Below, piece by piece: positions 40,686 to 63,111 of a stretch of 64,000 nt of DNA. The stretch is from Paludibacteraceae bacterium (GTDB taxonomy: Bacteria; Bacteroidota; Bacteroidia; Bacteroidales; Paludibacteraceae), in the NCBI GenBank assembly GCA_017477325.1, contig JAFUWV010000008.1:29718-93717 (forward strand), given 5' to 3'. The position numbers and the translations under genes are program-made. A model generated the notes under the pieces. The model saw only the letters and a program-made list of their open reading frames with translations, ran no database searches and was not told where the DNA came from. How positions within the stretch are numbered: the stretch's first letter is position 1; each line of letters begins with the position of its first letter.

Positions 40686-43178
40686 TTAAAAGGTAGATGG
40701 TTCTGGTGGCTCATTACCTGTTTCCGACTCAACCGTTTGTACCGTACTATGTGTGACGTTGCTCTTCTCTCCCAGGTAAAAGCAGCAGGCATTAATGAGT
40801 TGGGCATCTGTTTCAAAAGGCCCTATATATAATAAGGAGTGCTCAGTCGGTTCTGTGCCGTCAAGTGTGTAACGGATTTCTGCCCCTTCGACAGCTTTGT
40901 TCATATACACTCTCGAACTCTTCATACTTTCCCTATGTATGCCTGGCTGTGAAAGGTGAAATGCATAGCCTTGCTGGTTCAGGTATGGCAATTCGTATTT
41001 GCTTAGTTGCAGATTGTAGTTGTTCAGTGCCTCTTCGTATTTTCCTTGCCAGCGTTTGTTCCAACTGCGTTCTGCTGTACCAAGCAGTTTGGGTAGGAGG
41101 TAGCGCTCCAGTTGTTCAGGATTGCGTATGGTTTCGCTCCATAGTTGTGCTTGCACGCCTCGCAGATTTTTGCTCGAATCGGCAATCAAAATAGTTTTGT
41201 CGCTATTCATGTATTTCCCTAAATCTCTGTTTTCGCCCCTCAAAGTTCTTCTAACTGACAGATACAGTGAGTCGGGACGAAGATCAAAACTGCAATATTC
41301 GTCCACGTAACCTCCCCAGTTCAGACCTGTCTCTTGCTCATGGTTCAGATAGCACATATCCATGTACAAGTTGCATACGCTGCATATCATCACAGGGTAG
41401 CCCGCATTGGCAAGACGGTATGGTTTCTCGTCGCCACGCCATTCCGGCACACTGTTCCATGCGTATGTCAGTATGTTTTTTCCTGCAAAGCGTGGATTGG
41501 GGGTACCCTGGCGGTATGCCACCTCTTCCCAACCTGCTGTCTGTACTCCATATTCACTCAGTATTGTTGCTATTGTCTCAAGAAAACTATCCTTCAGATT
41601 GGCAACATCTGTACTCGTGACTGTAGCGCAGAGCTCTTCTCCGTTCTTCATAAAAGGCAGATTATATTCGGCTCCCGGCTCTGCTGCCATACGCTGTGCG
41701 AACACATACTGTCCTGTCTTTGGTGAACCCAGCCAGGCACCGCGTGGCACTTCGTCACCACCGACATGGAAAATACTAATCGGTGCATCTGCTTCTTTGT
41801 ACATCTGCATAATCTCGTCTATTACTTTCTTGGCAAAGGTGTAGCACGAAGGCAATGCTATGCAGATTACGTTGTCTGTGTAATGTTGTGCACTCACGTA
41901 TCTGCTTGTGTCTTGAAAGTCGCTGAGCAGATACTCCTCTGCTTTCTCCTTGTCTGTGTCAATATATTTCCAATATCTCGCTTCCATTGCTTTTATAGCA
42001 GCGCGTGAGTGCCCGGGCATGTCTATCTCGGGGACAATGTTTACAAATCTCTGTTTGGCGTATCTGAGTATCTCAATGAAATCTTGTTTTGTTAGGTATC
42101 CGTTGGCTGATGCCTCTTTGTCGTCAGGATTCCAGCCGCCTGAGTACATAGGGTAGAGGCAGTCTCTCTCGTCTTTGGTGTATCCTCTTCGTGCTCCCAC
42201 TTCAGTGAGTTCCGGCAGCCCCGGAATCTCTATGCGCCATCCTTCGTCATCGGTCAGGTGCAGATGCAGCACATTCATCTTGTACATGCTCAGCAGGTCA
42301 ATGATGCGCATAATCTCCTGCTTGCTTGTGAAGTTGCGCGCTATGTCAAGCATGAGTCCTCTGTGCGGAGTGTCAGGCCAGTCGGTGATGCGGCAGTATG
42401 GTAGCTTCTCTCCGTACTGCTGGCGGAGTCGCTCAAGAGTAAGTTCGGCATAAAACTTTCCTGCTGCATCAGCAGATGTTATGTGTGTCCCCTCTTTGTC
42501 AATCTGCAAACTGTATCCCTCTGCGGGTAGTGCGTCGTCATCATTGGTCATTGACTGGTCTTCGGCAGAGGCAAGCACCACTTTCTTAGGCTGCGGCAAC
42601 AGGTGAAGAGTGGTTTGCTCAGTTAACTTGTCAAACTCCTCAAACTTTTCAAACCTCATATTCTGCTTGTACACTTCTTCTCCGTCTGCATAAGGAAACC
42701 CGGCAATCTTGCGTCTGAACTCATGCCCGTCTGCTGAATAGACATACTCCATGGGAACAGTTATGGGCTGTTTTGCTTTCGGTTCCAGGCCTTTGACTAC
42801 GAATGCACCTTGTGGCGCACCCGTGCGGCGCATGATGTTTCCTCTGTAGCGCAGCCTTATCTCACGGCTGCTGTCTGGTGGTAGCGGTTGCCATAGTGTC
42901 GTTGGGGTAAGGCTGTGATACGATGCTTGTATTTGTGTTACGTGAACTTGTTCGCCTTCTGTCTCAAGCGGTGCTACCGACATCTGATTCCAGTACACTG
43001 CCCAATCGGCAAACAATGTGTCAGTAGAAATGTTGTGTATGGTCAGTTTGCTTTCTGCAATCCCTGACTCAATGTCATTTTCTATGTGTTGCCAACTCAG
43101 AGTGATAGGAGCTTTTTTGTTCGTACAACTTGTTGCTATAACTGCAAAGATGACCAATATGCGTAATTTTTGTTTCAT
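40686..43178 (-). CDS. Beta-N-acetylhexosaminidase lipoprotein, GH20
   Basis: An 830-residue enzyme that releases terminal GlcNAc or GalNAc. It is a lipoprotein (IATSC, Cys18). Order: an N-terminal beta domain, a GH20b domain (about 180-250, LLPQPKKVVL), the GH20 barrel (HRGLMLDIARNF, LHLHLTDDEGW and the catalytic Asp-Glu pair in HVGGDEVPRG near residue 470), then a C-terminal CHB_HEX_C-type domain (IRYTLDGTEPT). An ORF reaches 43199 but ATG 43178 begins the signal peptide and follows the -7 box at 43197-43204. It diverges from the GHL10-NamZ operon and could supply GlcNAc release for it. Confidence 0.92.
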   Translation of the reverse strand: MKQKLRILVIFAVIATSCTNKKAPITLSWQHIENDIESGIAESKLTIHNISTDTLFADWAVYWNQMSVAPLETEGEQVHVTQIQASYHSLTPTTLWQPLPPDSSREIRLRYRGNIMRRTGAPQGAFVVKGLEPKAKQPITVPMEYVYSADGHEFRRKIAGFPYADGEEVYKQNMRFEKFEEFDKLTEQTTLHLLPQPKKVVLASAEDQSMTNDDDALPAEGYSLQIDKEGTHITSADAAGKFYAELTLERLRQQYGEKLPYCRITDWPDTPHRGLMLDIARNFTSKQEIMRIIDLLSMYKMNVLHLHLTDDEGWRIEIPGLPELTEVGARRGYTKDERDCLYPMYSGGWNPDDKEASANGYLTKQDFIEILRYAKQRFVNIVPEIDMPGHSRAAIKAMEARYWKYIDTDKEKAEEYLLSDFQDTSRYVSAQHYTDNVICIALPSCYTFAKKVIDEIMQMYKEADAPISIFHVGGDEVPRGAWLGSPKTGQYVFAQRMAAEPGAEYNLPFMKNGEELCATVTSTDVANLKDSFLETIATILSEYGVQTAGWEEVAYRQGTPNPRFAGKNILTYAWNSVPEWRGDEKPYRLANAGYPVMICSVCNLYMDMCYLNHEQETGLNWGGYVDEYCSFDLRPDSLYLSVRRTLRGENRDLGKYMNSDKTILIADSSKNLRGVQAQLWSETIRNPEQLERYLLPKLLGTAERSWNKRWQGKYEEALNNYNLQLSKYELPYLNQQGYAFHLSQPGIHRESMKSSRVYMNKAVEGAEIRYTLDGTEPTEHSLLYIGPFETDAQLINACCFYLGEKSNVTHSTVQTVESETGNEPPEPSTF

Positions 43179-43196
43179 AATGTAGATATTTTCGCG

Positions 43197-43284
43197 CAAA
43201 GATACAATATTTTATCCACATAAAAAATATGTTGAAGAACATAAAAATTGCTATTTATGCATTGCATAAAAAGAGTTACCTTTG
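43197..43284. promoter_or_regulatory. Divergent promoter region of GH20 and the GHL10 operon
   Basis: Minus strand -7 box TATCTTTG at 43204-43197 for GH20 and plus strand -7 box TACCTTTG at 43277-43284 for GHL10. The -33 boxes are poor matches in both directions (TTTT, ATTT), which suggests activator-dependent promoters. A single 9-bp DnaA-type box (TTATCCACA, 43212-43220) lies between them. The GHL10 leader is about 80 nt. Confidence 0.55.
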
Positions 43285-43364
43285 TCGTCAGAATTCTTGC
43301 GTGTGTACGTATGCGGGCGTAAGAGGTTCGAAATATTTCGTAAATATCTAATTGATAGGCATAA

Positions 43365-45335
43365 ATGAAAAAGATTTCATATGAAATAGTAATGTCTCTT
43401 AGTAAGAAATTATTTTTGTTATACACGATATTGTGTTTTGTGCTTCCTGCCTTTGCCTTGAATCCCAAGCGTGAGTTTCGTGCTACGTGGCTAACAACAG
43501 TTAGGAATGTGGATTGGCCGTCGTACCAAGGTATGAGCGCAAAGTCCATGCAGGCTGAGATGACCAAACTGCTTGATAGCATCCAGACGCTCAATCTCAA
43601 TACCGTGTGTTTCCAAGTGCGTTGCAATGCCGATGCTTTCTACAAGTCGAAATACGAACCCTGGTCGGCGCTTATGACCGGTACTCGAGGCAAGGACCCG
43701 GGTTTCGACCCTCTGCAGATGTGGCTTGACGAATGTCACAAGCGAGGCCTGCAACTGCATGCGTGGATTAATCCGTATCGCTATAACAACAAGAAATCTA
43801 TGTGGGACGATGGCTGCTCGATGGGGTATGAATATACTCATCCCGAGTGGCTTTTCATTGCGCCCAAAGATAATTGTGTGGTTATGGACCCGGGTCTCCC
43901 CGAAGTAAGGCAGCGTGTCAAAGAAGTGGTAGGCGATATCCTGCACAACTATGATATTGACGGTATCATTTTCGATGACTATTTCTATCCCTATGGTGGC
44001 ACCACTGTGCAAGACTCTGCTTCTCAGCGTCTATACAAGCCTGCAGGTATGGTGGTGCAGGATTGGCGTCGGGAGAACATACAACAGATGGTGCAAGATG
44101 TGTATGACACCATTATGGCAGTCAATCCGCATGTGACATTCGGCATCTCGCCGTTTGGCATCTGGACCAACGACACTTACGTTGCGCGTCAGCACGGATT
44201 GACCTTACCAAAGGGGATCGGCAGTTCGGCAAATATGTATGCTGAAATCTATTGTGACCCTATCACTTGGCTTGAAGATGGCACTGTGGACTATATCTCA
44301 CCTCAGCTTTATTGGCCTACTTCTTCCAGACAGCCTTATGCTACTCTGTGTTCTTGGTGGGCCGGTATTGCCAACCGTTTCGGCAGACATTTCTACTCTT
44401 CTATGTCAACCGACAGTTATTCTCGCGGAGTCAGCGGGTTTACTATGCTTGAGATGCGTACTGAGACCGACTTGAACCGTTCCAGCTCTACCGATGGTGC
44501 CTTCGGCTCTATCTTCTTCCATACCAAAGGCTGGGTTTACGACTCTAAGTTCCGCTACCAGTATTCTCTTACGCGATTCTCTTCTCCTGCTCTGCCACCT
44601 GCCGTCAATTGGAAGAAGACCGACATCCTTCCTCTTGTAGAGAACCTGCAGTTGCAAGGTCAGAAACTGACGTGGAAAGCAGTCAGTGGCAACAATATCC
44701 GCTATGCTGTCTATGCTGTTCCTGCTTCTTATGCTGACTCCGTGCGGGTATTCTCCCGTTCCGATGTGCTTCTCGCTGTCAGTTTCACCAATTCTTACAC
44801 TTTGCCCGCAGGCATCAGTGCTGCTGACTATAGAATAGCAGTGTCTGTTATCGACGGATATTGGAATGAGTTCTCGCTCAAAGTGCTCGGTGAGCCGCTT
44901 ATGCCGGAAGAAAAGGCTGTGCTGCAATATCCTCTCGGTAGTGAGTCAGAGTTGAGTTGGAGTTGGCTCATTTTCCGCTGGAATGAGGTTAAAGATGCTT
45001 ACGCTTATGAGATTCAGATTGCAACCGATGAGGACTTCAATCACATTCTGGCAGCTCAGGAGGTTGAGACCAATAGCTTCAATGCGGAGAATCGTCTCAA
45101 CCTTGCCTTGGCAGGCTTAGGCGATTACTATTGGCGTGTGCGCACCAAAAAAGCCAACATGACGGATACATGGTCTGAGCCGGTGCATTTCACGGTTAAC
45201 TCCACTGCTGTACATTCGGCTCTTGAATTGTTACCGGCCAATGCTGTTCATGCACAGAAGATTGTTGAAGACGGAGTTATATATATCTTGCGTAATGGCG
45301 GGAAATACAATGTCTTGGGGCATAAAATTCAATAA
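43365..45335 (+). CDS. GHL10 (DUF187) glycosyl hydrolase-like protein, DigH family
   Basis: A 656-residue exported protein. A signal peptide is followed by the GHL10 barrel (about 35-370) with REFRATWLTTVRNVDWP, LHAWINPYR, DYDIDGIIFDDYFYP-like blocks (DGIIFDDYFYPYG) and FGISPFGIW. Two fibronectin-like domains follow (about 415-620). E. coli DigH of this family cleaves peptidoglycan glycan strands that lack stem peptides. The C-terminus (KIVEDGVIYI, then YNVLGHKIQ) matches the short T9SS-like tails of two other proteins here. It is first in the long operon and sits upstream of an amidase that would create denuded strands. Confidence 0.85.
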   Translation: MKKISYEIVMSLSKKLFLLYTILCFVLPAFALNPKREFRATWLTTVRNVDWPSYQGMSAKSMQAEMTKLLDSIQTLNLNTVCFQVRCNADAFYKSKYEPWSALMTGTRGKDPGFDPLQMWLDECHKRGLQLHAWINPYRYNNKKSMWDDGCSMGYEYTHPEWLFIAPKDNCVVMDPGLPEVRQRVKEVVGDILHNYDIDGIIFDDYFYPYGGTTVQDSASQRLYKPAGMVVQDWRRENIQQMVQDVYDTIMAVNPHVTFGISPFGIWTNDTYVARQHGLTLPKGIGSSANMYAEIYCDPITWLEDGTVDYISPQLYWPTSSRQPYATLCSWWAGIANRFGRHFYSSMSTDSYSRGVSGFTMLEMRTETDLNRSSSTDGAFGSIFFHTKGWVYDSKFRYQYSLTRFSSPALPPAVNWKKTDILPLVENLQLQGQKLTWKAVSGNNIRYAVYAVPASYADSVRVFSRSDVLLAVSFTNSYTLPAGISAADYRIAVSVIDGYWNEFSLKVLGEPLMPEEKAVLQYPLGSESELSWSWLIFRWNEVKDAYAYEIQIATDEDFNHILAAQEVETNSFNAENRLNLALAGLGDYYWRVRTKKANMTDTWSEPVHFTVNSTAVHSALELLPANAVHAQKIVEDGVIYILRNGGKYNVLGHKIQ

Positions 45336-45364
45336 ACAATAATACTAACCATAAAAACACGACA

Positions 45365-46210
45365 ATGAAGAAAATTCTTACTTTGTTAGTTGTCTGCATG
45401 GCACTCTTGTCAATGCAGGCTCAGCAAATCAGTGTCGGCGAGGCTCGTATGCTCCCTGGCACAGAAGGAGGAGGCTATTATCACTCTGTTTTCAGTCCTT
45501 CAGGTGATTATCTGCTCTCCTCAAGTGAAGACTACACAGGTCTTACCAGACACCAACTTGACAATGGCAGGCAGACTCATCTGAGCACTGCAGCCGGTGC
45601 AGGCTATGGAGTGCGTATCTCTCCTGATGGCAACACCATTGTAGCCAATCGCTTCGAGTATCAGAAGCACATTCGCATGGCTGCTATCGAGAGTATCGAT
45701 GCTCAGAGCGGACTCTCAGTGACCAAACGTCGCATGGCACGTTCACAAGCTGCCCCTGTTGACATCATGGGTGAGAAAGTGTACGTTACAACCAACGGCT
45801 TCGAGATGACTGTTCATAACGGCTCTACAGAATACACTCTCCGCCCCAATGGTGAGGAGAGCTATTTCTGGTGCTCGGTTTCGCCTGATGGCAAGCATAT
45901 AATGTATGTCACTGCTCATCATGGTGCTCAGGTTTGCAATATTGATGGCTCAAATCCTGTGTTCATGGGTATAATGAACGCCCCGCAGTGGATTGACAAT
46001 GAGAACGTAATTGCTATGCGTGATGTTGACGATGGTGATTTCATCGTAGAGTCGCGCCTCGTAGTTCGCAATATCAACAATCCCCGTGAGGTGCAGATTC
46101 TTCACATTGGACAGAAGGTAGCCATGTATCCCGCAGTTTCTGCTGACGGAAGATATATTGCTTTCAACAACAACCAAGGTCAAATCTTTATAATGGAGGT
46201 GCAGAAATGA
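45365..46210 (+). CDS. Secreted TolB/WD40-like propeller protein
   Basis: A 281-residue protein with signal peptide (cleavage near MQAQQ) and repeated blade motifs HSVFSPSGDYLLSSS, RISPDGNTIVAN, SVSPDGKHIMYVT and AVSADGRYIAFNNN. These are TolB-like (PD40) beta-propeller repeats. No catalytic residues are seen; it may bind ligand or another protein of the locus. It begins 29 bp after the GHL10 gene and overlaps the amidase gene by 4 bp. Confidence 0.75.
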   Translation: MKKILTLLVVCMALLSMQAQQISVGEARMLPGTEGGGYYHSVFSPSGDYLLSSSEDYTGLTRHQLDNGRQTHLSTAAGAGYGVRISPDGNTIVANRFEYQKHIRMAAIESIDAQSGLSVTKRRMARSQAAPVDIMGEKVYVTTNGFEMTVHNGSTEYTLRPNGEESYFWCSVSPDGKHIMYVTAHHGAQVCNIDGSNPVFMGIMNAPQWIDNENVIAMRDVDDGDFIVESRLVVRNINNPREVQILHIGQKVAMYPAVSADGRYIAFNNNQGQIFIMEVQK

Positions 46211-49200
46211 AACGCTTTATGACTACACTCATGGTGGCACTCGTTGTAGTGTGCGCTATGGCAGCAGATATGACTGGTTTGAAGATTTATATCAACCCGG
46301 GTCATGGAGGTTTCGACAGCAACGACCGTAGTATCTGGACTATTCCCGTACCTGCCGTATGGACTGACTCGGCAGGCTATTGGGAGTCGAAATCCAACTT
46401 TGTTAAAGGACTATATCTCCGCAAGATGCTCCAGGATGCCGGTGCTACCGTCATCTTCTCCCGCGAGAGGAACGACAGTGGCTCGCGCGACATTGATGAG
46501 TTCAAGAAGAAACATCCTAATGCAACCCAGCATGAGATTGACTCCGTAATGGTGGGTGGCGACCGTGAGTTGTCGGCTATCGCAGAAGAGGCCAATGCTT
46601 ACAAGGTTGACCATTTCCTCTCTATTCACTCCAATGCCCTTAATGGTAAGACCAACTATCTGCTCATGCTCTTCCGTGGTGAGAATGACAAACCTCAGAC
46701 TGCACCCAGCAACGAGATGGCTGCCATGGCAGGAGAAATCCAGATACAGAATAAACTCACCACTTGGACCAGTGCCAGGCCTATCATTCGCGGTGACCTC
46801 ACTTTCTATGGCGATGGTTGGGGACTTGGCGTACTCCGTCCTCTCACTGTCCCCGGACACCTCTCCGAAGGCTCGTTCCACGACTATGCTCCTGAAACAC
46901 ACCGACTGATGAACAAAGACTATTGCCATCTGGAGGCTCTGCGTATGTTCCAGTATTTCCACAAGTGGTTCAAACGCGACCTGCCTCAAACGGCTACTAT
47001 CTCAGGATACGTAAAGTCGAAAAACGAGAAGGCTGATGTGCTCGGCGAAAGCAAGTTCTACTATCTGCCTAACTCTGATGACCAGTGGAAACCGCTCAAT
47101 GGCGCACTTGTCAAACTGCTTAACAGCACGGGTGAAGTAGTGCTTCAGACTCTTAAAACCGACGACTGGTATAATGGTATCTTCGCCTTCTACGACCTTG
47201 CTCCCGGCACATACAAAGTGGCTGCCGAGTGTATAGACTATAAAACCGACACAATGGAAATAACCGTTGCAGCCGAAGAGATAGGTACAGTGAAGATGCA
47301 TCTGCAGAATATTCACCTTGAAGTGCCCAACTATCCTGAACCCGAGCAGGCAGGTGTGGTCGCACTTGACACCTATGAGTTCGAGGCTGGAGCAGACGTC
47401 GTAAGTGCTCTGCCGGAGAACATCCTTCGTGCCGCTTATCGCAAGGGTAACATCTATATCCTTACTTCCGACAACAAGATTCAGGTTTACGAGCCTGCTA
47501 CTCTCACTCTCAAGCAATCACTTACTCTGCCGGCAGCAACTATCACCGATATCGCTTTCTCGGCTGATGACTATCTTGTGGGCTTGGCAGATAAAGCAGT
47601 ATATGCATGGGACGAGGATGACCTGAATCCTCAGAAACTCTACGAGACTTCTGCTGCATGGGGCAAGCAGTTCGCAGTTGACGGACCGCTTTGGAAAGCA
47701 CGTTTCTATGTGGTCAATTCGGCAGGCAACGGATTCGTTGGTGTGCAGTATAGCGATGGAAAGAATAGTGCCAACATTCAGATTGCTGAAAAGCAGTTTG
47801 CTTTCTCAGGTGGTGACCTCAGTAGTTCTGCTCCGATTATCATGCCGGACAACAATGTTTATGCTTTTGTTGCAGGCAAGGGTGTTGCACTTACTTTCAA
47901 CTGGACCGGTGCTGCACTTACAGGCATCGAAATGTCGCAACCTGCTGTTCCCGGTGCTACTTTCATGCGTTATGCAGGCAAAACCTACATGACTATGCCC
48001 GTGCTTACAGAGGGTGCTAAGGCAAGTTTCATCGTATACGATATCTCCAATGGAATCAACAATGCTGTACCTGCATCCGAGCAGTATCCTGCCGAGGGAC
48101 TTGGTACTGCCGCTGTTACCTATCAGACGGCTATGTCATACGTTGATGGCTATCAGATGAATATATATCTGCTTGCTGAAGGCGAAGGCTACCAATATTG
48201 GAAATCACTCTCCAACCCTGTGGCTAACATATATGCCGGTGAACTCAACTGGGGTGAGGACCAGATTAGTTTCCGCCTGAACGATGACGCCCTCTCCGTT
48301 GAGCTTGCAATCGAGCAGGAGGGAGCCACTGTTGACAGTTACGAACTCGGTGCTCTCAAACGCGGCTTCCACACTGTAGACAACCCCTTCAAAGGAAAAG
48401 AGTTCGATGCCTATAGCGTTACCGCTACCGGTCGCCCCGTATCGTTCCCGCAACTTGTTACTACCGATGCTCCTGAGTTTAAGTTCTATAGCATCTATGG
48501 TGTAGCTGTTGACCGCACTCCTGCTTCGCCCTACTTTGGACGTATCTACGTAACTGACCGCTCAGGTGGCTTGACTTCTGAGGGCAATGGTCCGCACCGT
48601 ACTACCCAAAGAGGTATCTATATTCTTGGTAATGACTTCTCTGATGTAACCTCACAAGGCGAGACTCCTTACAACGGAGGCATCGACTGGGGAACCAACA
48701 GCGTGACAGGATATCAGACAGGTCCTCGCAAACCATCTGTCGCTCCTAATGGCGAAGTGTTTATCAGTTCCAGTGTATATACTTCTTCCAATGTATATAT
48801 CATGAATCCGGCAGCACCTGCAGAGGACTTTGTGCCTGTGTTCAAGGGCAGCCGCAAGGATGGAGGACAACTCAAGAAGGGTATGAACGTAGTGATGAAC
48901 CCGCCGATGGACTGCTATATCGAGGGCAATGATGAGGACCGCGTGCTCTACACTATGGACCGCAACAACTCGCTCGGTACGGTTTACACTAACATCATGC
49001 GTTATGACATAGGCAAGGTCGAACTGCCATGGTACGATACGCCTACTGCTACTGTCTTCGATGACCAGCTTACCGGCTCGCACATGGAGAATGGTAATGG
49101 TCAGATCTACCCTGATGCACGTGGCGGATGGTGGATGAGCCAGTATCGCTACGACGGAACAGCCGCCAAGCCTTCGTTCATACATATCAATACCAAGGGT

Positions 49201-49782
49201 GAAATCGACTTCAACAACTTCACTTACTCGCCCACTGCAGGTGCCAACCGTTGGGGTGCTATGGCAGTTACAACCGATGGCAACCGTCTGGCTGTGATGA
49301 CTCTTGCAGGTGTCACTAAAGTTTATGATATCACCTACGAATCTGACGGCCCTGTACCCGAACTCGCTTATACCATAGAGTGGGGCGCTACCGACGACAT
49401 AGCCTACACTATGGACTTCGATGCTGCAGGCAACCTGTACATTGGTGCCAACCTGCGTGAGCGTCTCCTGGTTTATTCACTGCCCAACCTGCTGAACACC
49501 TATACTACTCGTATCTCGCTCAAACACGAAGATCCTGCTGGTGTGGAGGACGTAAAGAGCAGCAATTTCCTCACCATCTACCCCAATCCTGTTCAGGACA
49601 TGCTCTTCATCAGGTCTGACGGCAAGGTTCAGGCAGCTTCGGTTTACTCGCTCGCAGGGCAACTTCAAATGTCAACTCAGAACACCTCGTCTGTTGATGT
49701 AAGCGGCTTGCAGACTGGTATGTATATGCTTCAGGTAAAGACTGACAAGGGTACTGAGGTGAAGAACTTTATCAAACATTAA
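46207..49782 (+). CDS. N-acetylmuramoyl-L-alanine amidase fused to a propeller and T9SS tail (1191 aa)
   Basis: After the signal peptide comes an Amidase_3 domain (about 24-258) that cuts the bond between MurNAc and the stem peptide. Zinc and catalytic residues are in place: His33 (NPGHGGFD), Glu60 (GYWES), His141 (SIHSNA) and Glu221 (LSEGSFHD). A carboxypeptidase-regulatory-like domain (about 265-375) and a long propeller region (about 390-1090) follow, then a T9SS type A tail (TIYPNPVQDMLF, ending VKNFIKH). The blade motif GVAVDRTPASPYFGRIYVTD near residue 760 recurs twice in the next gene. Secretion of an amidase by T9SS implies action on external peptidoglycan. Confidence 0.88.
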   Translation: MKRFMTTLMVALVVVCAMAADMTGLKIYINPGHGGFDSNDRSIWTIPVPAVWTDSAGYWESKSNFVKGLYLRKMLQDAGATVIFSRERNDSGSRDIDEFKKKHPNATQHEIDSVMVGGDRELSAIAEEANAYKVDHFLSIHSNALNGKTNYLLMLFRGENDKPQTAPSNEMAAMAGEIQIQNKLTTWTSARPIIRGDLTFYGDGWGLGVLRPLTVPGHLSEGSFHDYAPETHRLMNKDYCHLEALRMFQYFHKWFKRDLPQTATISGYVKSKNEKADVLGESKFYYLPNSDDQWKPLNGALVKLLNSTGEVVLQTLKTDDWYNGIFAFYDLAPGTYKVAAECIDYKTDTMEITVAAEEIGTVKMHLQNIHLEVPNYPEPEQAGVVALDTYEFEAGADVVSALPENILRAAYRKGNIYILTSDNKIQVYEPATLTLKQSLTLPAATITDIAFSADDYLVGLADKAVYAWDEDDLNPQKLYETSAAWGKQFAVDGPLWKARFYVVNSAGNGFVGVQYSDGKNSANIQIAEKQFAFSGGDLSSSAPIIMPDNNVYAFVAGKGVALTFNWTGAALTGIEMSQPAVPGATFMRYAGKTYMTMPVLTEGAKASFIVYDISNGINNAVPASEQYPAEGLGTAAVTYQTAMSYVDGYQMNIYLLAEGEGYQYWKSLSNPVANIYAGELNWGEDQISFRLNDDALSVELAIEQEGATVDSYELGALKRGFHTVDNPFKGKEFDAYSVTATGRPVSFPQLVTTDAPEFKFYSIYGVAVDRTPASPYFGRIYVTDRSGGLTSEGNGPHRTTQRGIYILGNDFSDVTSQGETPYNGGIDWGTNSVTGYQTGPRKPSVAPNGEVFISSSVYTSSNVYIMNPAAPAEDFVPVFKGSRKDGGQLKKGMNVVMNPPMDCYIEGNDEDRVLYTMDRNNSLGTVYTNIMRYDIGKVELPWYDTPTATVFDDQLTGSHMENGNGQIYPDARGGWWMSQYRYDGTAAKPSFIHINTKGEIDFNNFTYSPTAGANRWGAMAVTTDGNRLAVMTLAGVTKVYDITYESDGPVPELAYTIEWGATDDIAYTMDFDAAGNLYIGANLRERLLVYSLPNLLNTYTTRISLKHEDPAGVEDVKSSNFLTIYPNPVQDMLFIRSDGKVQAASVYSLAGQLQMSTQNTSSVDVSGLQTGMYMLQVKTDKGTEVKNFIKH

Positions 49783-56100: not shown

Positions 56101-56455
56101 TGAAAATACAGATGCTTTCTATCCGCGTCTGACCGAAACCAACCAGCCCGGACAGTACTCGGCTGCTTCGTTCAACTTCCTTTGCCAGACTCGCTACCTG
56201 CTCGATATGTCATATCTGCGTCTTAAGAATATCACTGTCGGATATTCCCTCCCGCAGAATGTACTGAGGAAAATGCACTTCGAGAAGTTCCGTGTATATG
56301 CAAGTTTCGAGAATGTGGCTGAGATTGACCATCTCGGCAACTATCCTGTTGACCCGGAAACTGCAACATCTGCAGGCGATGGCGGTGCAATGGGTTGGGG
56401 ACGTATCTATCCTTTCACTCGCCAGATGTCGTTTGGACTTCAGATAGCTTTGTAA
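53192..56455 (+). CDS. susC: SusC-family TonB-dependent outer membrane transporter
   Basis: A 1087-residue receptor: signal peptide, CarboxypepD_reg-like domain (about 22-100, GRVADPQGEPLIGVSV), TonB-box region (LLDEVVVVGYD), plug domain (about 115-230, with the SusC signature ISVLKDAASSSIYGTRAAFGVI as blocks VLKDAASS and SIYGTRAA), and a C-terminal beta-barrel. It imports ligands delivered by its SusD partner across the outer membrane. Translationally coupled to the preceding gene, which ties the propeller protein to uptake. Confidence 0.95.
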   Translation: MKRSFLIFIVLAMALTSVWGETITGRVADPQGEPLIGVSVMVDGTTVGTITDFDGNYQIDAPKTGVLVFSYVGYTTENVKIQSRSVINVTLKEDNKLLDEVVVVGYDTQRKANLTGAVASVSVSDQLEGRPITNVGTGLQGATPGLTITQSSGRIGQTPTFRIRGAVGTFLNESGSQPLILVDGVEISDIALINPDDIQDISVLKDAASSSIYGTRAAFGVILITTKKGAQNQSKFNVKYSNNFSWATPTVLPQVAKSYEGAAMALEARNRRTPGTTIFKNSCGLVWDAASIEMMRQWEQVYGNRELDAEMKEGRDFEIIGGDAYFYRSWNPAEEYVKDYSFSQQHNISVAGTANKTNYYLGLGYMGQNGVVKVNPDKYSRYSVDFSVDTEVFKWFRVRSKLLYAHTDLKTPFNFGSTSYDALYYLYRWPAIMPYGTYKGSPFRNSVTETAAANMDSNLKDYMRASIGATFQFYKDLSLDIDYTYNLDNQSITQRGGTVGGWDFWNGGLTLSDNWASTARNKIDKYVYMRHYHAGNAVLRYKHTWNDAHKFSAFAGMNIEYKEVDYVNAEKRELLDQTKPEISLAIGDDFVYGSHTSWAIMGFFARINYSYKDRYLIELNGRVDGSSRFPIDKQWGFFPSGSLGWVASEEDFFEVLKPWWSFAKLRASYGSVGNQDIGDYRFRAIMTSSSSNWIIGDVNQRTFSLPTVIADGFTWETIKTIDVGADLRFFNDDLGLSFDWYRRINDGMVVGGSELPSTFGASAPYQNAAQLTTNGWELSLDYHHKFSNGLRINATFNLADARTIVTKHPRKETSIIDGSNYEGKEYGEIWGFETDRLFQQSDFHTENVDGKDVLVLNDGIPTQTYFEKSNGYGYKYGPGDVKYKDLDGDGDINWGSKTVADHGDLKRIGNTTPRFEYNFRIGLDWYGVDLSLFFQGVGSRQYWATGTMMIPGWNFSEGVYYAHQTDYWTPENTDAFYPRLTETNQPGQYSAASFNFLCQTRYLLDMSYLRLKNITVGYSLPQNVLRKMHFEKFRVYASFENVAEIDHLGNYPVDPETATSAGDGGAMGWGRIYPFTRQMSFGLQIAL

Positions 56456-56486
56456 TGGAAACTGTAACAGATAAAATTGTATGATT

Positions 56487-58262
56487 ATGAAAAAGATTAA
56501 ATATATCAGTCTTATTGCACTCATGGCAATGCTTGCAAGTTGCAATTTCCTCAATCAGGAACCCTTCGACCAGATTACCGACGAAGAATTCTGGAAGACG
56601 GAAGACCAGGTGCGCACATTCATGTATGGCTTCTATACCACCGTCTTCTCAGGCTATGGTACCGGCACTGCCCACGGACCGTTCCTCATGGGACAGACGC
56701 TCAACGACGACTTCTCTTCTGATGTCTCGCAAAACAATCTGCAGCCTGAGGTGGTGCCCGTAAGCGATGGGGCTTGGAGTTTCTCCAATGTGCGTCGTGC
56801 CAACTATGTTATCGAGAATATCGACCGACTTGATGCCAATGCTGCTACGCGCAACCACTGGCGTGGTGTGGCACGCTTCTATCGTGCTTGCTACTATTCC
56901 AATCTCACCTTCACTTTTGGTGATGTACCTTGGTACGACCATGTGGTATCCAGCACGAATAATGATGACCTCTACAAAGACCGTGACCCGCGTGTCTATG
57001 TTGACTCATGCATCATGGCGGACTTCCGCTATGCTATCGACAGTGTCCGTCAGACCGATGGCGATTTGCAAATCAATAAGTATGTAGTCGCTGGTATGGC
57101 ATCGCGCTTCATGCTCAGAGAAGGTACCTATCTCAAGTATCACTACTCTGCCGATGCCGCATCTCTTGATATGGCTGAGAAATGCCTCCTGTTCGCTAAG
57201 GAAGCCGCTCTCGAAGTAATGAACTCAGGTAAGTACGGCATTTCTCCTTCTTACAATGCTCTCTTCACGTCCGACAACCTCGCGGGCAACTCTGAGATTC
57301 TCATGTATCGCCACTATGTTGACGGTGTGCTCACTCACTCCACGCTCACGTACAGCTATACTGAGGCTCAGGCTGGTGCAAGCAAGTCACTTGCTATGGC
57401 ATTCCTCACTAAGGATGGTAAGCCTGTCGAAGTGGCAGATGCTGCCTATTGTCCTCGTACTTCCGACGAGTTCTTTGCTGACCGTGACCCGCGTCTCTCG
57501 CTCTGCATACGTCCTAAGTACTATGTCAAAGGTACTGATTGCCAACCCTTCTCATACGCTCTGTCCGGATACTCTTGGTGTAAGTTTATGAATGATGAGG
57601 AGGCTATGAAACTGAAAGCCGAAGGAAAACAGAATCCTCTCTTCAATCGTGAGAAAAACGTGACAGACGCTCCGTGTCTGCGCTATGCCGAGGTATTGCT
57701 CAACTATGTCGAGGCAGCTTACGAACTCCATTCTTTCAAAGCCTCATACCCCTTCACACAGGATGATATTGATAAGTCTGTCAACCTTATCCGTGCCCGT
57801 GCAGGCATAGAGATGCCGCGTCTTGAGATGGTGGGCGACCAGCCGGCAGTCTCAGGTATGGTTTACGATGACCCTGTACGCCAGCGTATTGAGGCGAATG
57901 CGGCTGGTGTTGAGACTCCTTCACTCCTTTGGGAGATACGACGCGAACGTCGTGTTGAACTCTGCTTCGAAGGATTCCGTCTCAATGACCTCAAGCGTTG
58001 GGGCAAACTCGACTATGTGTGGAACGGTTGCAACCCTGATATACGCTATGGCGCATATATCGTTGCCGCTGACTACCCGGGTAAAGCTGATGAGATAGTG
58101 TTCGAGGATAAAACTGCCACCGAAGGCTATATCCTTCGCAACACCGAGGTACAGCGTCAACGACCCGTTGAGCGCAACTACATCAGCCCCGTGCCTTCAG
58201 GTCAGATTCAACTCTATCAGGCTCATGGATACACGCTCACTCAAACTAAGGAGTGGCAGTAA
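56487..58262 (+). CDS. susD: SusD-family surface glycan-binding lipoprotein
   Basis: A 591-residue lipoprotein (MLASC, Cys19) with NFLNQEPFDQITDEEFWKTE at the mature N-terminus and the typical RagB/SusD blocks WSFSNVRRANYVIENID, RFYRACYYSNLTFTFGDVP and LLWEIRRERRVELCFEGFR (given in parts: RRANYVIENID, WEIRRERRVEL). The frame opens at 56481, but the second Met (56487) fits the signal peptide. It forms the lid over SusC and captures substrate. 31 bp after susC. Confidence 0.94.
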   Translation: MKKIKYISLIALMAMLASCNFLNQEPFDQITDEEFWKTEDQVRTFMYGFYTTVFSGYGTGTAHGPFLMGQTLNDDFSSDVSQNNLQPEVVPVSDGAWSFSNVRRANYVIENIDRLDANAATRNHWRGVARFYRACYYSNLTFTFGDVPWYDHVVSSTNNDDLYKDRDPRVYVDSCIMADFRYAIDSVRQTDGDLQINKYVVAGMASRFMLREGTYLKYHYSADAASLDMAEKCLLFAKEAALEVMNSGKYGISPSYNALFTSDNLAGNSEILMYRHYVDGVLTHSTLTYSYTEAQAGASKSLAMAFLTKDGKPVEVADAAYCPRTSDEFFADRDPRLSLCIRPKYYVKGTDCQPFSYALSGYSWCKFMNDEEAMKLKAEGKQNPLFNREKNVTDAPCLRYAEVLLNYVEAAYELHSFKASYPFTQDDIDKSVNLIRARAGIEMPRLEMVGDQPAVSGMVYDDPVRQRIEANAAGVETPSLLWEIRRERRVELCFEGFRLNDLKRWGKLDYVWNGCNPDIRYGAYIVAADYPGKADEIVFEDKTATEGYILRNTEVQRQRPVERNYISPVPSGQIQLYQAHGYTLTQTKEWQ

Positions 58263-58298: not shown

Positions 58299-60053
58299 AT
58301 GAAACACATCTTTAAATCCGCAGCACTACTCTTTGCTGCAGCTGCATTCTTCATGACAGGATGCAACAATAACAACAACAAGGACACTGATGTGGCTCCC
58401 TACATCATCTCCCTTACTATCAACAACGGAGGCCTGACAGGTACAGAACGTTATACCGGCACTGTGGACACTGCAGCACATACTGTTGTCTTCAACAATG
58501 TGGCTGCCGAAACCAATCTTGCTGCTGTCAAGTTTGAGTCCAAACTTTCTATAGGTTCCACTCTTGATAAAACTGAGTACGACTTCCTTACAGGTGCTGA
58601 GGCCGATGCCAAGACAGTATCACAGACCATCTCTGTCGTTCCTGAGTTTGGCAACAACGTAACTTACACTGTTACCCTTAATCTCAAAGACCCGGAGACT
58701 GCTCCTGTCATCGAACGTCTTGTTATCAAAGACGCTGCAGGAGCTGAGCATACTGTTACCGCTGCCAATGTGGTAGATAATCTTCTCCTGCTTGGTGTTC
58801 CCGAGTCGGCTACGGCAGAGGTCGTTAGCATCTCTCTCTTGCCCGCACGTGCTACCTACGAGTTCACTGCTATCGCAGACAATGTTATCAGTGCTACCAA
58901 CCCCGGTATGCTCAAACTTAACTTCATGGGACTCACCACCGAGTATCAGCTGTCTTTCTCTTCAACACCTGCTGCAGGTGCTGACTTCAGCAAGGCTGTG
59001 GTTCATGCTTGGGATAACTCTACATCGGTCTATACAGACCTCGCTGACCAGAACACTCGTAGCGGTGATATCGATGAGAATTATATTCTCCTTGTTAACC
59101 GTGCAGGCGATGTTCCCAACCCCTATCTGCTCCGTATCGACGATGTGCTTGCAGGCAATGTAGGCAACAAGGTTCAACTCGATATCACAGGTGTTGAGGG
59201 TGGAACCTTCGCAGTAAGTTCAGGTCGTCTCACTCAAGGTCATATCTATATTTGCAACCTCCAGTCACCCGCTGTCGGAGAAGAAGCTCCACTCATCATC
59301 TATCATTGGGAGTCGGCTACTGCCAAACCCGTGAAAGTGCTCGAGTGGACAGGTGCTCTCGACAATGCAGAAGACCCATTCAACCTCCGTCTGGGCGACA
59401 ACCTTGCCATCAGTCTCGATGCTTCCGGCAACGGATATGCTTTCCTCGCTGGTCAGGAGACAGGTACTGAGCGCCTCATTCGCTTCACCGTTACAGGCTT
59501 CACTCAGTTCTCCGAGCCTACTGCTCTCCAACTCAAGGCTCCGGCTCAGTACTATGGTATCTATAATAAGGTGGGCGACAACGAGTATCTCTTCAAGTCA
59601 ACCTTCAATCCTACCCTCTGGCTCTACGACAAGGATGCCACTCTGCTCTACGAACTCGCATGGGAGGGTAGTGCCGATGGTGGACATGCTACCGACTTCC
59701 ATATCATTGAGTTCAATCGCGCACGCTACCTCATCTGTACCAACGCTCGTCGCTACAACTGGTGGAAACCCGAAGCATTGCTCGTTTACGATATCACCGA
59801 GGGTATGACCAATGCAGCTGCTCTCAAGGCTATGGATGAAAACCGTCCTATCGACCCCGAGAGTGAAGATCCCGAGTTCCCCGATTATCTGCCTTTCGAG
59901 CCTGTGTTCAAGTATGAATACTCCTCAGGTGATAACCCTGTTGCTGCATGCTCTGCTATTTGCAATGCTGTGGTTAAAGACGGTAAACTCGTCATTCTTT
60001 CGGCTGCTCCTACCGCCGGACTTGTGGTAGTAGAAGTGCCTATTGCTCTCTAA
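58299..60053 (+). CDS. Surface lipoprotein, SGBP-like (Ig-like domains plus propeller)
   Basis: A 584-residue lipoprotein (MTGC, Cys22) directly after susD, the place of surface glycan-binding proteins in polysaccharide utilization loci. Residues about 30-130 form an Ig-like domain (ISLTINNGGLTGTERY) of the DUF5018 kind, followed by a second beta-sandwich (about 130-220). The C-terminal 350 residues look like a propeller (FRLGDNLAISLDASG-like block, HIIEFNRARYLICTNARRY). I recall a similar C-terminal family as DUF4623, but have not verified it. Substrate unknown. Confidence 0.75.
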   Translation: MKHIFKSAALLFAAAAFFMTGCNNNNNKDTDVAPYIISLTINNGGLTGTERYTGTVDTAAHTVVFNNVAAETNLAAVKFESKLSIGSTLDKTEYDFLTGAEADAKTVSQTISVVPEFGNNVTYTVTLNLKDPETAPVIERLVIKDAAGAEHTVTAANVVDNLLLLGVPESATAEVVSISLLPARATYEFTAIADNVISATNPGMLKLNFMGLTTEYQLSFSSTPAAGADFSKAVVHAWDNSTSVYTDLADQNTRSGDIDENYILLVNRAGDVPNPYLLRIDDVLAGNVGNKVQLDITGVEGGTFAVSSGRLTQGHIYICNLQSPAVGEEAPLIIYHWESATAKPVKVLEWTGALDNAEDPFNLRLGDNLAISLDASGNGYAFLAGQETGTERLIRFTVTGFTQFSEPTALQLKAPAQYYGIYNKVGDNEYLFKSTFNPTLWLYDKDATLLYELAWEGSADGGHATDFHIIEFNRARYLICTNARRYNWWKPEALLVYDITEGMTNAAALKAMDENRPIDPESEDPEFPDYLPFEPVFKYEYSSGDNPVAACSAICNAVVKDGKLVILSAAPTAGLVVVEVPIAL

Positions 60054-60066
60054 TCTATAAATTTAG

Positions 60067-60092: not shown

Positions 60093-60106
60093 TTGCTATA
60101 TTGTTT

Positions 60107-61402
60107 ATGAAACGCCTCATCCTCTGTTTTTCAATATTCGCTATCACCTGTTCGCTGTTGCCTGCTTGCTCTGCCAGAGTGCAGGTCGGTGCTGAGCAGA
60201 CTGCCGACTATCTGCCCCTCCTTAAGGACAAACGTGTCGCACTCTTCTCCAATCATACCGGTATTGTTGGCGATAAACATACGCTTGACATCTTGGTCGG
60301 TAACAGTGTAAACGTCACTGCTATCTTCTCTCCCGAGCATGGATTCCGTGGCACTGCCGGTGCAGGCGACCATGTTGCCAGTTCTGTTGACGAGAAGACG
60401 GGCGTGCCTATCTTCTCGCTTTACGACAAAGGCTCCTATGCTCCTTCTGCCGAGTCTATGCAGCAGTTCGACATACTTGTCGTTGATATTCAGGATGTAG
60501 GTCTGCGTTTCTACACTTATTATATCTCCATGGTCAGACTTATGGCTGCCTGTGCAGATTGTTCTAAACCAGTCATCATTCTTGACCGCCCCAATCCTAA
60601 CGGGTTCTATGTTGATGGGCCTGTTCTTGATATGAAATTCAAGTCGGGAGTAGGGTGGTTGCCTATACCTGTCGTGCATGGCATGACACTCGGAGAATTG
60701 GCTCTTATGGTCAATGGAGAGCACTGGCTGCCCGATGGCAAACAGTGCGAACTGACTGTCATTCCCTGCCGTAACTACACCCACCTCACACGCTATCGTC
60801 TGCCTGTGCCGCCTTCGCCCAACCTTCGCAACATGCTTGCCGTCTATCTCTATCCTTCTATGTGCTATTTCGAGGCAACACCTGTCTCTCTCGGTCGTGG
60901 CACCGACCTCCCTTTCCTCTGTTATGGTCATCCGGATTATAAAATCTCTAATTCTTTAAACTTTAAACATTCAACTTTAAACTATTTTTCCTTCACTCCA
61001 CGCTCGATGACCTCTGCACCCAAACCTCCGTGTCAGGACCGACTGTGCTATGGCGTTGACCTCTCGCACATGTCCGAAGAGGAGGCTATGAACCTTGGTC
61101 TTGACCTCACCTTTCTCATCGATGCATACACCAATCTCATGGCTACCCACGATACTATTAACTCTCCACGGCTTGCCGATCGTGAGAGCGAAGCGAACAA
61201 AGAACTTTCAACTTCTTTCAACTCTCAACTCTCAACTCTCAACCCATTCTTCTCTCCCTTCTTCGAGAAACTCATAGGTGTTGACTATGTCCGTCCGATG
61301 ATTGAAGCTGGTAAGTCCGCCGAAGAGATACGTGCCTGCTGGCAGCAGGATGTCGAATCTTTCAAAATCCAACGCCGCCCCTACCTCCTTTACAAAGAAT
61401 AA
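60107..61402 (+). CDS. namZ: Exo-beta-N-acetylmuramidase NamZ-type lipoprotein (GH171, DUF1343)
   Basis: A 431-residue lipoprotein (LPAC, Cys21) of the DUF1343/NamZ family. Motifs: LFSNHTGIVGD, FSPEHGFRGTAGAGD (with the conserved acidic residue near 76), VVDIQDVGLRFYTYY, ILDRPNPNGFYVDGP, EATPVSLGRGTDLPF and FSFTPRSMTSAPKP. NamZ releases MurNAc from the non-reducing end of peptidoglycan fragments. Two stretches (about residues 281-296 and 367-380) are encoded by in-frame heptamer repeats and look like insertions. ATG 60107 is preferred to TTG 60101. A stretch of heptamer repeats separates it from the symporter gene. Confidence 0.9.
   Translation: MKRLILCFSIFAITCSLLPACSARVQVGAEQTADYLPLLKDKRVALFSNHTGIVGDKHTLDILVGNSVNVTAIFSPEHGFRGTAGAGDHVASSVDEKTGVPIFSLYDKGSYAPSAESMQQFDILVVDIQDVGLRFYTYYISMVRLMAACADCSKPVIILDRPNPNGFYVDGPVLDMKFKSGVGWLPIPVVHGMTLGELALMVNGEHWLPDGKQCELTVIPCRNYTHLTRYRLPVPPSPNLRNMLAVYLYPSMCYFEATPVSLGRGTDLPFLCYGHPDYKISNSLNFKHSTLNYFSFTPRSMTSAPKPPCQDRLCYGVDLSHMSEEEAMNLGLDLTFLIDAYTNLMATHDTINSPRLADRESEANKELSTSFNSQLSTLNPFFSPFFEKLIGVDYVRPMIEAGKSAEEIRACWQQDVESFKIQRRPYLLYKE
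60136..60170 (+). repeat. Heptamer-like repeat in the namZ signal sequence
   Basis: Units ATTCGCT, ATCACCT, GTTCGCT, GTTGCCT, GCTTGCT. They are close to the units at 17724 and 19214 but encode a normal hydrophobic signal core, so chance cannot be ruled out. Confidence 0.35.
60947..60995 (+). repeat. In-frame heptamer repeat in namZ
   Basis: Units TCTAATT, CTTTAAA, CTTTAAA, CATTCAA, CTTTAAA, CTATTTT. It codes for SNSLNFKHSTLNYF between the family blocks GHPDY and FSFTP, which are normally close together. Confidence 0.75.
61205..61249 (+). repeat. Second in-frame heptamer repeat in namZ
   Basis: AACTTTC, a 10-bp variant, then AACTCTC x3 and AACCCAT. It codes for the Ser/Thr/Leu/Asn-rich peptide STSFNSQLSTLNP. 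Confidence 0.75.
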
Positions 61403-61403
61403 T

Positions 61404-61567
61404 CTTTCAACTCTCCACTTTCAACTCTCAACTCTAATACTTCTCTCAACCTTAAACTCTCCACTTTCAACTTTAATACTTTAAAACTTCTCTCAACTTT
61501 AAACTCTCAACTCTCAACTTTAATACTTCAATACTTCTCTCAACTTTAAACTCTCAACTCTCAACTA
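61404..61567 (+). repeat. Large heptamer repeat array between namZ and the symporter gene
   Basis: About 160 bp made almost entirely of CTTTCAA, CTCTCAA, CTCTCCA, CTTTAAA and CTTTAAT units, interrupted by 8- and 11-bp variants. A higher-order block ending in ACTTCTCTCAA occurs three times. It fills the whole gap between namZ and the next gene, reaching 2 bp before the ATG, and is nearly free of G. It would give an unstructured leader. Confidence 0.85.
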
Positions 61568-61569
61568 AT

Positions 61570-63111
61570 ATGAGCCCTCTCGTCATCCTCATCACTATCG
61601 CAGCCTATTTCGCAGTCCTCTTCTTCGTCTCGTGGATTGCAGGTCGTAATGCCGACAATGCAGGTTTCTTCTCCGGCAATCGCCAGTCCAACTGGATTAT
61701 TGTTGCCATGTCCACCATCGGTGCTGCTATCTCAGGTGTCACCTTCGTCTCTGTTCCGGGTATGGTTCAGGGAGCTGGTTTCTCATATATGCAGATGGTG
61801 CTCGGATTCACTGTCGGACAGATTCTCGTGGCGTATGTCCTTATACCTATGTACTACAAGATGAATCTGACCAGCATCTACCAGTATCTCGAAAACCGCT
61901 TTGGTGTCACCACCTATAAGACAGGTGCATGGATATTCTTCCTCAGCAAGATGCTCGGAGCCAGCGTACGGCTCTTTGTTGTCGGGTCCGTACTGCAACT
62001 CCTCGTCTTCGACCCGCTTCATACTCCTTTCTGGGTCAATGCTATCTTCACCGTTGCCATCGTCTATCTCATCACTTTCAAGGGGGGCGTCAAGTCCGTC
62101 ATCTGGACCGACCTCTTGAAGACTACATGCCTCATACTCTCTGTCGTGCTCTGCATAGTCTTTGTTATGAAGAGTGGAGTCAGTTTCTCAGGCTTTGGTG
62201 AGTCCGAGATGTCTCGTACTTTCTTCTTCGACGACCCTAATGATGGCAAGTTCTTCTGGAAGCAGTTCCTTGCAGGTATCTTCCTTGTCATCGCCACCAC
62301 AGGCCTCGACCAGGACCTCATGCAGCGTACGCTCTCATGCCGTAACTATCGTGATGCACAGAAGAATATGATAACAGGGGCTGTTATGCAGATTTTTGTT
62401 ATCTTCCTCTTCCTTGTCCTCGGATGGCTTCTCTATACTTATGCTGCACAAACCGGTGTGCCTCTCGTTAGCACCACAGGTGAGCCGCTCAAGGGTGACG
62501 ATGTATTCCCCTTCCTCGCTACCGGCAACTTCTTCCCTGTCATTGTCGGCATACTCTTTATCGTAGGTTTCATCGCATCTGCCTATTCTGCTGCAGGCTC
62601 GGCACTCACTGCACTGACTACCTCTTTCACCATCGATATCCTTGGTAAGAATGAGAGTGAAAAGGAAGATAATATCAATCAGATCAAAGAAAAAAACAAC
62701 TCTCCACTCTCTTCTAAAAAACTTCTCTCAACTCTCAACTCTCAACTTTCAACTCAAGAGACCCGTAAGATTGTGCACGCACTCATGGCTGTACTCATGG
62801 CTGTATGCATCTATGTCATCTGGATTCTCAACGATGACTCAGTCATCCAGACTGTTTACAAAGTGGCGTCCTATACCTACGGACCTCTGCTCGGTATGTT
62901 CTGCTTTGGCATGTTCACTCGTCTTCAGGTGCGCGACCGCCTCTTGCCGCTGGCTGCTGTCCTTGCTCCTGTCATCACTTGGATTCTCGATGCCAACTCC
63001 GCCGCATGGTTCGGTGGTTATCAGTTCTCGCACGAGCGCCTCATCCTCAATGCACTCCTGACCTTCCTCTTCATGCTCATCCTCTCCAAACCCAAAACAA
63101 ACAAAGCATAA
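61570..63111 (+). CDS. Sodium/solute symporter (SSS family)
   Basis: A 513-residue inner-membrane symporter with about 13 helices. The N-terminus has AGRNADNAGFFSGNRQSNW and SAISGVTFVSVPG-type blocks (AAISGVTFVSVPGMV), as in sialic-acid and sugar SSS transporters; DQDLMQRTLSCRN and SAAGSALTALTTSFTIDIL are further family motifs. Its place after namZ suggests it carries MurNAc or a related amino sugar, but SSS substrates cannot be read from sequence. A cytoplasmic loop contains an in-frame heptamer-repeat insertion (LLSTLNSQLSTQ). Confidence 0.88.
   Translation: MSPLVILITIAAYFAVLFFVSWIAGRNADNAGFFSGNRQSNWIIVAMSTIGAAISGVTFVSVPGMVQGAGFSYMQMVLGFTVGQILVAYVLIPMYYKMNLTSIYQYLENRFGVTTYKTGAWIFFLSKMLGASVRLFVVGSVLQLLVFDPLHTPFWVNAIFTVAIVYLITFKGGVKSVIWTDLLKTTCLILSVVLCIVFVMKSGVSFSGFGESEMSRTFFFDDPNDGKFFWKQFLAGIFLVIATTGLDQDLMQRTLSCRNYRDAQKNMITGAVMQIFVIFLFLVLGWLLYTYAAQTGVPLVSTTGEPLKGDDVFPFLATGNFFPVIVGILFIVGFIASAYSAAGSALTALTTSFTIDILGKNESEKEDNINQIKEKNNSPLSSKKLLSTLNSQLSTQETRKIVHALMAVLMAVCIYVIWILNDDSVIQTVYKVASYTYGPLLGMFCFGMFTRLQVRDRLLPLAAVLAPVITWILDANSAAWFGGYQFSHERLILNALLTFLFMLILSKPKTNKA
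62696..62757 (+). repeat. In-frame heptamer repeat in the symporter gene
   Basis: CTCTCAA-type units (CAACTCTCC, then AACTTCTCTC, AACTCTC x2, AACTTTC, AACTCAA) encode NNSPLSSKKLLSTLNSQLST. The sequence nearly matches the array upstream of the gene, which points to copying between sites. Confidence 0.8.

Follow-up and report, generated by a model that had tools for sequence, protein, structure and literature searches.

Tannerella forsythia is an auxotroph for N-acetylmuramic acid (MurNAc) because MurA and MurB are missing, as described in PMC7670621. Its operon Tanf_08345-08385 is given in PMC5388701 as comprising genes for a 'xanthane lyase' and two glycosyltransferases, followed by lytB, ampG, ybbC, murT, murK and murQ; neither SusC nor TonB is mentioned in the available parts of that source, and the operon as given there is without a SusC/SusD pair (SusCD) and without GHL10. 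Other points of reference are Cwp19 of Clostridioides difficile, which PMC6016235 describes as a peptidoglycan lytic transglycosylase and autolysin, and the Sus-type polysaccharide utilization loci (PULs) of Bacteroidota. Here we describe a block of genes at positions 40686-63111 of a 64,000-nucleotide stretch of DNA from a Paludibacteraceae bacterium. This stretch, the window, corresponds to bases 29718-93717 of contig C8 (JAFUWV010000008.1) of genome G000 (GCA_017477325.1), an assembly of 1.89 Mb in 12 contigs that is 71% complete. The block is probably a PUL-type system for foreign peptidoglycan that supplies MurNAc to bacteria in which murA and murB have both been lost. A survey of open-licence literature, mostly titles and the beginnings of abstracts, found neither a SusCD locus for peptidoglycan nor MurNAc auxotrophy in Bacteroidales beyond T. 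forsythia. The auxotrophy is a new element; the initial annotation, which had read the block as a candidate PUL for bacterial cell walls, did not foresee it.

The ybbC gene of T. forsythia is, we presume, of NamZ type, and the window resembles the operon of that species in that its namZ gene adjoins the gene of a proposed MurNAc importer. The two organisms are also alike in encoding MurK and MurQ and in missing murA and murB. T. forsythia reportedly has two enzymes, NamZ1 and NamZ2, and two NamZ-type enzymes per organism likewise occur in many of the relatives studied here; in contrast to T. forsythia, however, one NamZ lies here in a SusCD locus. Unlike the T. forsythia operon, as far as it is published in the available source, the present system includes SusC/SusD and GHL10, and its MurK and MurQ are encoded in a second SusCD locus. 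What the present locus is predicted to add to the T. forsythia scheme is SusCD-mediated passage through the outer membrane and an amidase that acts at the surface. With Sus-type PULs the block shares a SusC/SusD pair, a glycan-binding-type lipoprotein, glycoside hydrolases and a symporter, but its enzymes (amidase, NamZ and GHL10) target peptidoglycan and no regulator gene was seen in it. The window's GHL10 domain is shared with Cwp19, but the latter is an autolysin of a Gram-positive bacterium and bears CWB2 motifs (PMC6016235).

The case for auxotrophy comes from the genus of the window's genome, represented by 178 genomes including that one, one per species. Matches to murA were found in 123, to murB in 122 and to NamZ in 42 of these genomes. 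The curated cut-off was exceeded by 107 of the 123 murA matches and some of the others are fragments, including the 46-aa match in G237, the single genome with murA and without murB. NamZ and murA were never found together: 42 genomes had NamZ only, 123 had murA only and 13 had neither, and none of the 42 NamZ genomes gave a match to murA or murB (Fisher p 1.2e-29 for NamZ versus murA, a value that ignores shared ancestry). Orthologs of the window's SusD, defined as matches at E<=1e-100, were present in 23 of the 178 genomes, all of them among the 42 with NamZ. No genome of the genus with a murA or murB match thus carries the SusD ortholog, which lends further support to the peptidoglycan reading. 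There was no murA match in the window's genome or in G101, a genome that is 98% complete and bears the locus. When MurNAc auxotrophy is defined as the absence of both murA and murB, it applies to the window's own genome and to all nine SusD-ortholog genomes among the 68 of high quality in the genus. NamZ lies within about 5 kb of the SusD ortholog in eight of the 23 genomes (G000, G212, G215, G228, G230, G235, G293 and G301) and about 23 kb from it in G101; in the remaining genomes of the 23, no NamZ was listed nearby on the same contig.

In a wider sample of 150 genomes of the family, searched for murA and NamZ, murA was absent from nine of the 97 high-quality genomes, which belong to four genera (G070, G101, G111, G118 and G138 to one; G011 to another; G028 to a third; G044 and G083 to the fourth), and eight of the nine carry NamZ. 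A simple replacement of murB and murA by NamZ at the same site was not seen when 12 stretches surrounding murB/murA in murA-positive genomes (L123-L134; L132 holds murB only) were compared with NamZ stretches L058-L061; the only gene cluster shared by the two sets was a two-member 91/124-aa match.

The grouping of the window's genes exceeds chance, and their order recurs in relatives. We compared 18 distinct loci with a SusD ortholog, made up of 16 named loci together with L076 and L050 (L098 and L107 repeat L076 and L050, respectively). The 18 aligned SusD orthologs share 59-76% identity. The 18 named loci, repeats included, come from metagenome-assembled Bacteroidales or Paludibacteraceae with stated sources in rumen, reticulum, cecum and rectum, and stated hosts of the ortholog loci are goat, sheep, water buffalo, roe deer and water deer. 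In G101, of the same genus, a GH20 gene is divergent from a GHL10-PD40-Amidase_3-Big2-SusC-SusD-DUF4623 series, and in G102, of another genus, the genes from GHL10 to DUF4623 stand in the window's order and are followed by NamZ and SSF. DUF4623 is present in 18 of 18 loci. Four ortholog loci are cut at contig ends; of the 14 that could be judged, 12 have an Amidase_3 gene scoring above 500 bits upstream of SusC. NamZ directly followed by an SSF gene adjoins in 4 of the 18 (L050, L100, L101 and L105). The comparison set consisted of 19 non-orthologous SusD neighbourhoods (L077-L095), hand-picked rather than random and reported together. None of the 19 contained Amidase_3, MurK or MurQ; GH20 was found in L088 and a relative of an esterase of contig C10 (see below) in L080, and 14 of the 19 held none of the tested query genes.

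The genes for a MurNAc kinase and etherase, which the initial annotation had placed outside the window, are located on contig C10 of the same genome, and a genome devoid of MurNAc catabolism, which would have spoken against its reading, is not what we found. The murQ match reached 317 bits (cut-off 302), and the kinase beside it matched 8ow9 with 312 bits and 8ow7 with 230 bits. According to PMC10465942, these structures show T. forsythia MurK and kinase K1058, respectively, each with MurNAc. Both genes are part of a second SusCD locus (about 102.6-128 kb; stretches L073 and L006), which also encodes SusC/SusD, GHL10, a NAGPA-domain protein with a type IX secretion system (T9SS) tail, an esterase-like protein, a divergent NagB fusion and a second Amidase_3 protein, which has a T9SS tail and is fused to a propeller. 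The C10 amidase and that of the window share 38% identity over 355 positions, and the PD40 propeller of the window matches residues 53-202 of the C10 fusion (78 bits). Since both are SusCD loci, the amidase, propeller and GHL10 are common to two such loci of one genome. The presence of MurQ and MurK in the genome, the second SusCD/GHL10/Amidase_3 locus and the recurrence of the block in relatives all support the reading of the block as a peptidoglycan PUL.

The open reading frames (ORFs) first annotated in the window are all present at their positions, and Pfam recovered each of the domains named for them, from GH20 through SSF, above cut-off. The GH20 beta-N-acetylhexosaminidase gene (40686-43199, minus strand; Glyco_hydro_20, 276 bits) is divergent from an operon on the plus strand. 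The operon begins with a glycan-strand cleaving enzyme of lytic transglycosylase type (43365-45335; GHL10, 214 bits), a PD40/TolB-like beta-propeller (45365-46210; PD40), an Amidase_3 N-acetylmuramoyl-L-alanine amidase with a type IX secretion tail (46207-49782; Amidase_3 and Por_Secre_tail) and a Big_2/NHL protein that is possibly a wall- or glycan-binding accessory (49860-53195; Big_2 and NHL). It continues with the SusC TonB-dependent outer-membrane transporter (53192-56455; CarbopepD_reg_2, Plug and TonB_dep_Rec_b-barrel), the SusD-type surface binding lipoprotein (56481-58262; SusD_RagB and SusD-like_3), a DUF4623 lipoprotein that is likely a surface glycan-binding protein (58299-60053; Pfam DUF4623, 165.9 bits), a NamZ exo-beta-N-acetylmuramidase of the 4jja-like subfamily (60101-61402; NamZ_N 242.8 and NamZ_C 105.7 bits) and a sodium:solute symporter, the proposed MurNAc importer, which adjoins namZ (61570-63111; SSF, 90 bits). 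The 4-bp overlaps between genes that had been described are real, but there are only two of them (46207-46210 and 53192-53195) and not several, and the lipoprotein that had been likened to surface glycan-binding proteins is the DUF4623 member. Note that the NamZ ORF begins with TTG at 60101 and that the likelier start is the ATG at 60107. The contig stops (base 93717) at the window's right edge, and readable sequence lies to the left only.

As in Sus-type PULs, susC and susD adjoin (53192-58262) with GH20, GHL10 and NamZ nearby. A cognate regulator (hybrid two-component system or extracytoplasmic function sigma factor), a common but not obligatory part of such loci, is missing from the block, and no regulator family was found among the 12 ORFs scanned with Pfam (37329-63111). 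A scan of 43100-43500 gave no promoters or terminators, and that scan does not cover Bacteroidota promoters.

The wall-degrading enzymes of the window were characterized by comparison with known families. The Amidase_3 domain scored 41.1 bits (Pfam cut-off 27) and had no significant match in PDB (best 13.4 bits, Cwp6); the tail of the protein matched both Por_Secre_tail and TIGR04183. Residues H33, E60, H141 and E221, which we take to be the zinc and catalytic residues, are invariant in 11 aligned rows, ten of them distinct (row L098 repeats L076). Given these residues and the tail, the amidase is probably exported by the type IX system and active extracellularly; the window itself encodes a PorZ-type component of this system (29845-32217). 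The GHL10 protein has an N-terminal signal sequence, judged by eye, and the sole PDB sequence at E<=0.01 was Cwp19 (260 bits). DigH of Escherichia coli also belongs to the GHL10 family and has denuded glycans as its substrate. The GH20 enzyme best matched 9joq (401 bits), with which the Asp-Glu pair of its HVGGDE motif aligns, and its N terminus is lipoprotein-like by eye; the GH20 family is generic and not specific to peptidoglycan. NamZ enzymes release MurNAc from the non-reducing end, and the window's enzyme was assigned to one of two subfamilies because it scored 549 bits against 4jja and 155 bits against 4k05. The DUF4623 protein matched 4ftd (138.5 bits), and the symporter scored 160 bits against the TIGR00813 superfamily, under its cut-off of 184.

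These assignments suggest a route from the foreign wall to the cytoplasm. The exported amidase, judging from its domain, tail and presumed catalytic residues, would strip stem peptides extracellularly, and GHL10, if it acts as its relative Cwp19 does, would cut the denuded glycan strands into pieces. By family and position, DUF4623 and SusD would capture these pieces and SusC would import them. GH20 and NamZ, with the activities familiar from their families, would then take turns, probably within the periplasm, in removing terminal N-acetylglucosamine (GlcNAc) and MurNAc, and the SSF symporter, which stands beside namZ, would carry MurNAc to the cytoplasm. There, MurK and MurQ of the C10 locus are expected to convert part of it to GlcNAc-6P and D-lactate, and the remaining MurNAc would have to be activated to uridine diphosphate-MurNAc (UDP-MurNAc) for MurC, whose gene is present in most but not all relatives.

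With a cut-off of 335 bits, murC was recovered in 34 of the 55 genomes of the genus that are without murA and murB, and four more scored 299-332 bits. It is followed by ftsA- and ftsZ-type families in seven genomes (G101, G118, G138, G111, G212, G224 and G070), the FtsA/FtsZ identity having been established on representatives of clustered families; no match was obtained for the 244-aa gene that separates murC from ftsA. Where murC is retained without murA and murB, we infer that UDP-MurNAc must come from salvage. The window's genome has five APH matches, examined as candidates for AmgK. One of them, L115, is a NahK-like anomeric kinase (229 bits to 4wh1); two (L114 and L116) are paralogs of the TIGR02172 family, L118 resembles Ser/Thr kinases and L117 only weakly matches a model of 3-deoxy-D-manno-octulosonic acid (KDO) kinases. 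The other NamZ subfamily lies beside one family of proteins of about 930-950 aa in four genomes (G101, G118, G138 and G111); the sole scanned member of that protein family, the G111 copy (L061), is a flavin/iron-sulfur oxidase. This oxidase presumably resembles D-lactate dehydrogenases, and an oxidase next to NamZ would use the D-lactate freed by MurQ.

Several observations weigh against a supply line for auxotrophs. The auxotrophs may descend from few events, in which case the Fisher p overstates independence. Of the 42 NamZ genomes of the genus, 19 have no SusD match at the threshold used, and the high-quality genomes G070, G222 and G296 are without murA, murB and NamZ, with murC over cut-off. 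Of the 23 high-quality genus members that lack murA and murB, just 15 have murC over cut-off and 3 more score 299-332 bits; G177, G191, G239, G244 and G303, all of high quality and with NamZ, have only weaker Mur-ligase matches, and two of these five (G177 and G239) also carry the SusD ortholog. The best murC match in the window's own, 71% complete genome reaches 208 bits, below the cut-off. The symporter step is weakened by the literature: the family and the place beside namZ agree with T. forsythia MurT if that protein is a sodium symporter, as stated in the introduction of PMC5790795, but the discussion of the same source makes it a major facilitator. The proposal is thus weakened on two sides, by murC falling short of the cut-off in 8 of 23 high-quality genomes and by the two families given for MurT. 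Ortholog locus L102 is without Amidase_3, the Amidase_3 match of L113 is just 24 bits, and non-orthologous SusD loci may adjoin GHL10 (L077), NamZ (L082) or SSF (L081), one each of the 19.

If the peptidoglycan PUL were purely nutritional, a source of carbon and nitrogen, the loss of murA and murB would be a coincidence of shared ancestry. Such a reading, which we regard as unlikely, draws on G102, in which the whole run from GHL10 to SSF coexists with murA, so that the locus does not require auxotrophy, and on NamZ in 39 of the 88 high-quality genomes with murA in the family sample. Genus g28 has two genomes with both murA and NamZ (G055 and G075); in g15, two NamZ genomes are without murA, six murA-positive genomes are without NamZ, and a third murA-less genome (G132, 85% complete) is also without NamZ. 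As NamZ occurs in murA-positive genomes, it does not imply auxotrophy across the family. MurK, MurQ and the NagB fusion would supply the catabolic route that a nutritional system needs. What speaks for a supply line instead is that within the genus NamZ is found in 0 of 123 murA-positive genomes versus 42 without murA and murB, and that in the family it recurs in eight of the nine high-quality murA-less genomes, across four genera.

The block could also help the cell to recycle or remodel its own peptidoglycan, given that NamZ, GHL10 and Amidase_3 families act in turnover too and that Cwp19 is an autolysin (PMC6016235). The amidase, however, has a type IX tail, its gene runs in the same direction as those of SusC, SusD and DUF4623, and import through the outer membrane is ill-suited to periplasmic turnover unless shed pieces of wall are recaptured; disfavoured by the secretion tail and the SusCD pair, self-recycling appears very improbable. 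A PUL for another glycan rich in N-acetylhexosamine, such as chitin, mucin or a host glycan, would make the peptidoglycan-type genes passengers. The generic GH20 and the weak likeness of SusD to the model of the sialic-acid binder NanU (33 bits against a cut-off of 425) are what it has in its favour, but the recurrence of a strong Amidase_3 gene upstream of SusC, the NamZ and SSF genes that adjoin in a minority of the ortholog loci, and the second locus, which repeats the theme with MurK and MurQ, are not expected of it. The conserved gene order likewise disfavours passengers. We have therefore rejected a chitin or mucin PUL as the principal explanation and consider another glycan extremely improbable.

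We lean, if only somewhat, towards a broader claim: that 42-55 of the 178 genomes of this gut and rumen genus, together with members of three further genera of the family, gave up MurNAc synthesis and draw on the walls of their neighbours for it, those 23 that have the locus, at least, via a dedicated SusCD importer of murein glycan. If so, obligate cell-wall scavenging would be a trait of a lineage and not a peculiarity of one oral pathogen, MurNAc auxotrophy would include many uncultured species of the gut besides the one oral species, and many uncultured Bacteroidales of rumen and gut would need the peptidoglycan of other bacteria for growth. This need may help explain their resistance to culture, with MurNAc or a murein digest as a supplement for isolation, and it predicts that they would not respond to inhibition of MurA. 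Passage of wall fragments across the outer membrane in Bacteroidota scavengers is left unexplained by the T. forsythia operon, at least as published in the available source, and a conserved SusCD pair, present in this genus only where murA and murB are missing, is a concrete candidate importer.

Other arrangements of the same gene families were observed outside the genus and in further loci. In murA-positive G033, from another genus of the family, some 37 kb (L065 and L047) hold a cluster with MurQ, both NamZ subfamilies, GHL10, SSF and GH20, and with a window-like SusC/SusD besides a second SusCD pair. In G114, NamZ, GH20, SSF and two SusCD pairs lie together (L040 and L081), and its other NamZ stands with MurK and MurQ on a separate contig (L062).

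An array of TCAACTC heptamers separates namZ from the symporter gene (61404-61566, plus strand; Tandem Repeats Finder) and is accompanied by short arrays of the same unit within the coding regions of namZ (61218-61243) and of the symporter (62725-62755). NamZ has 433 aa and SSF 513 aa here, most relatives having about 387-417 and 482-492 aa, respectively; the additional NamZ residues relative to 4jja take in the heptamer repeat, and for SSF this was judged by eye. Since slippage by a 7-mer would shift the reading frame, phase variation of namZ and the symporter is conceivable from the repeats. Other heptamer arrays with different units occur at 20078-20163 and 20862-20892 of the window, and the protein encoded at 6560-13156 has 2198 aa and carries BNR_assoc_N and DUF4465 domains.

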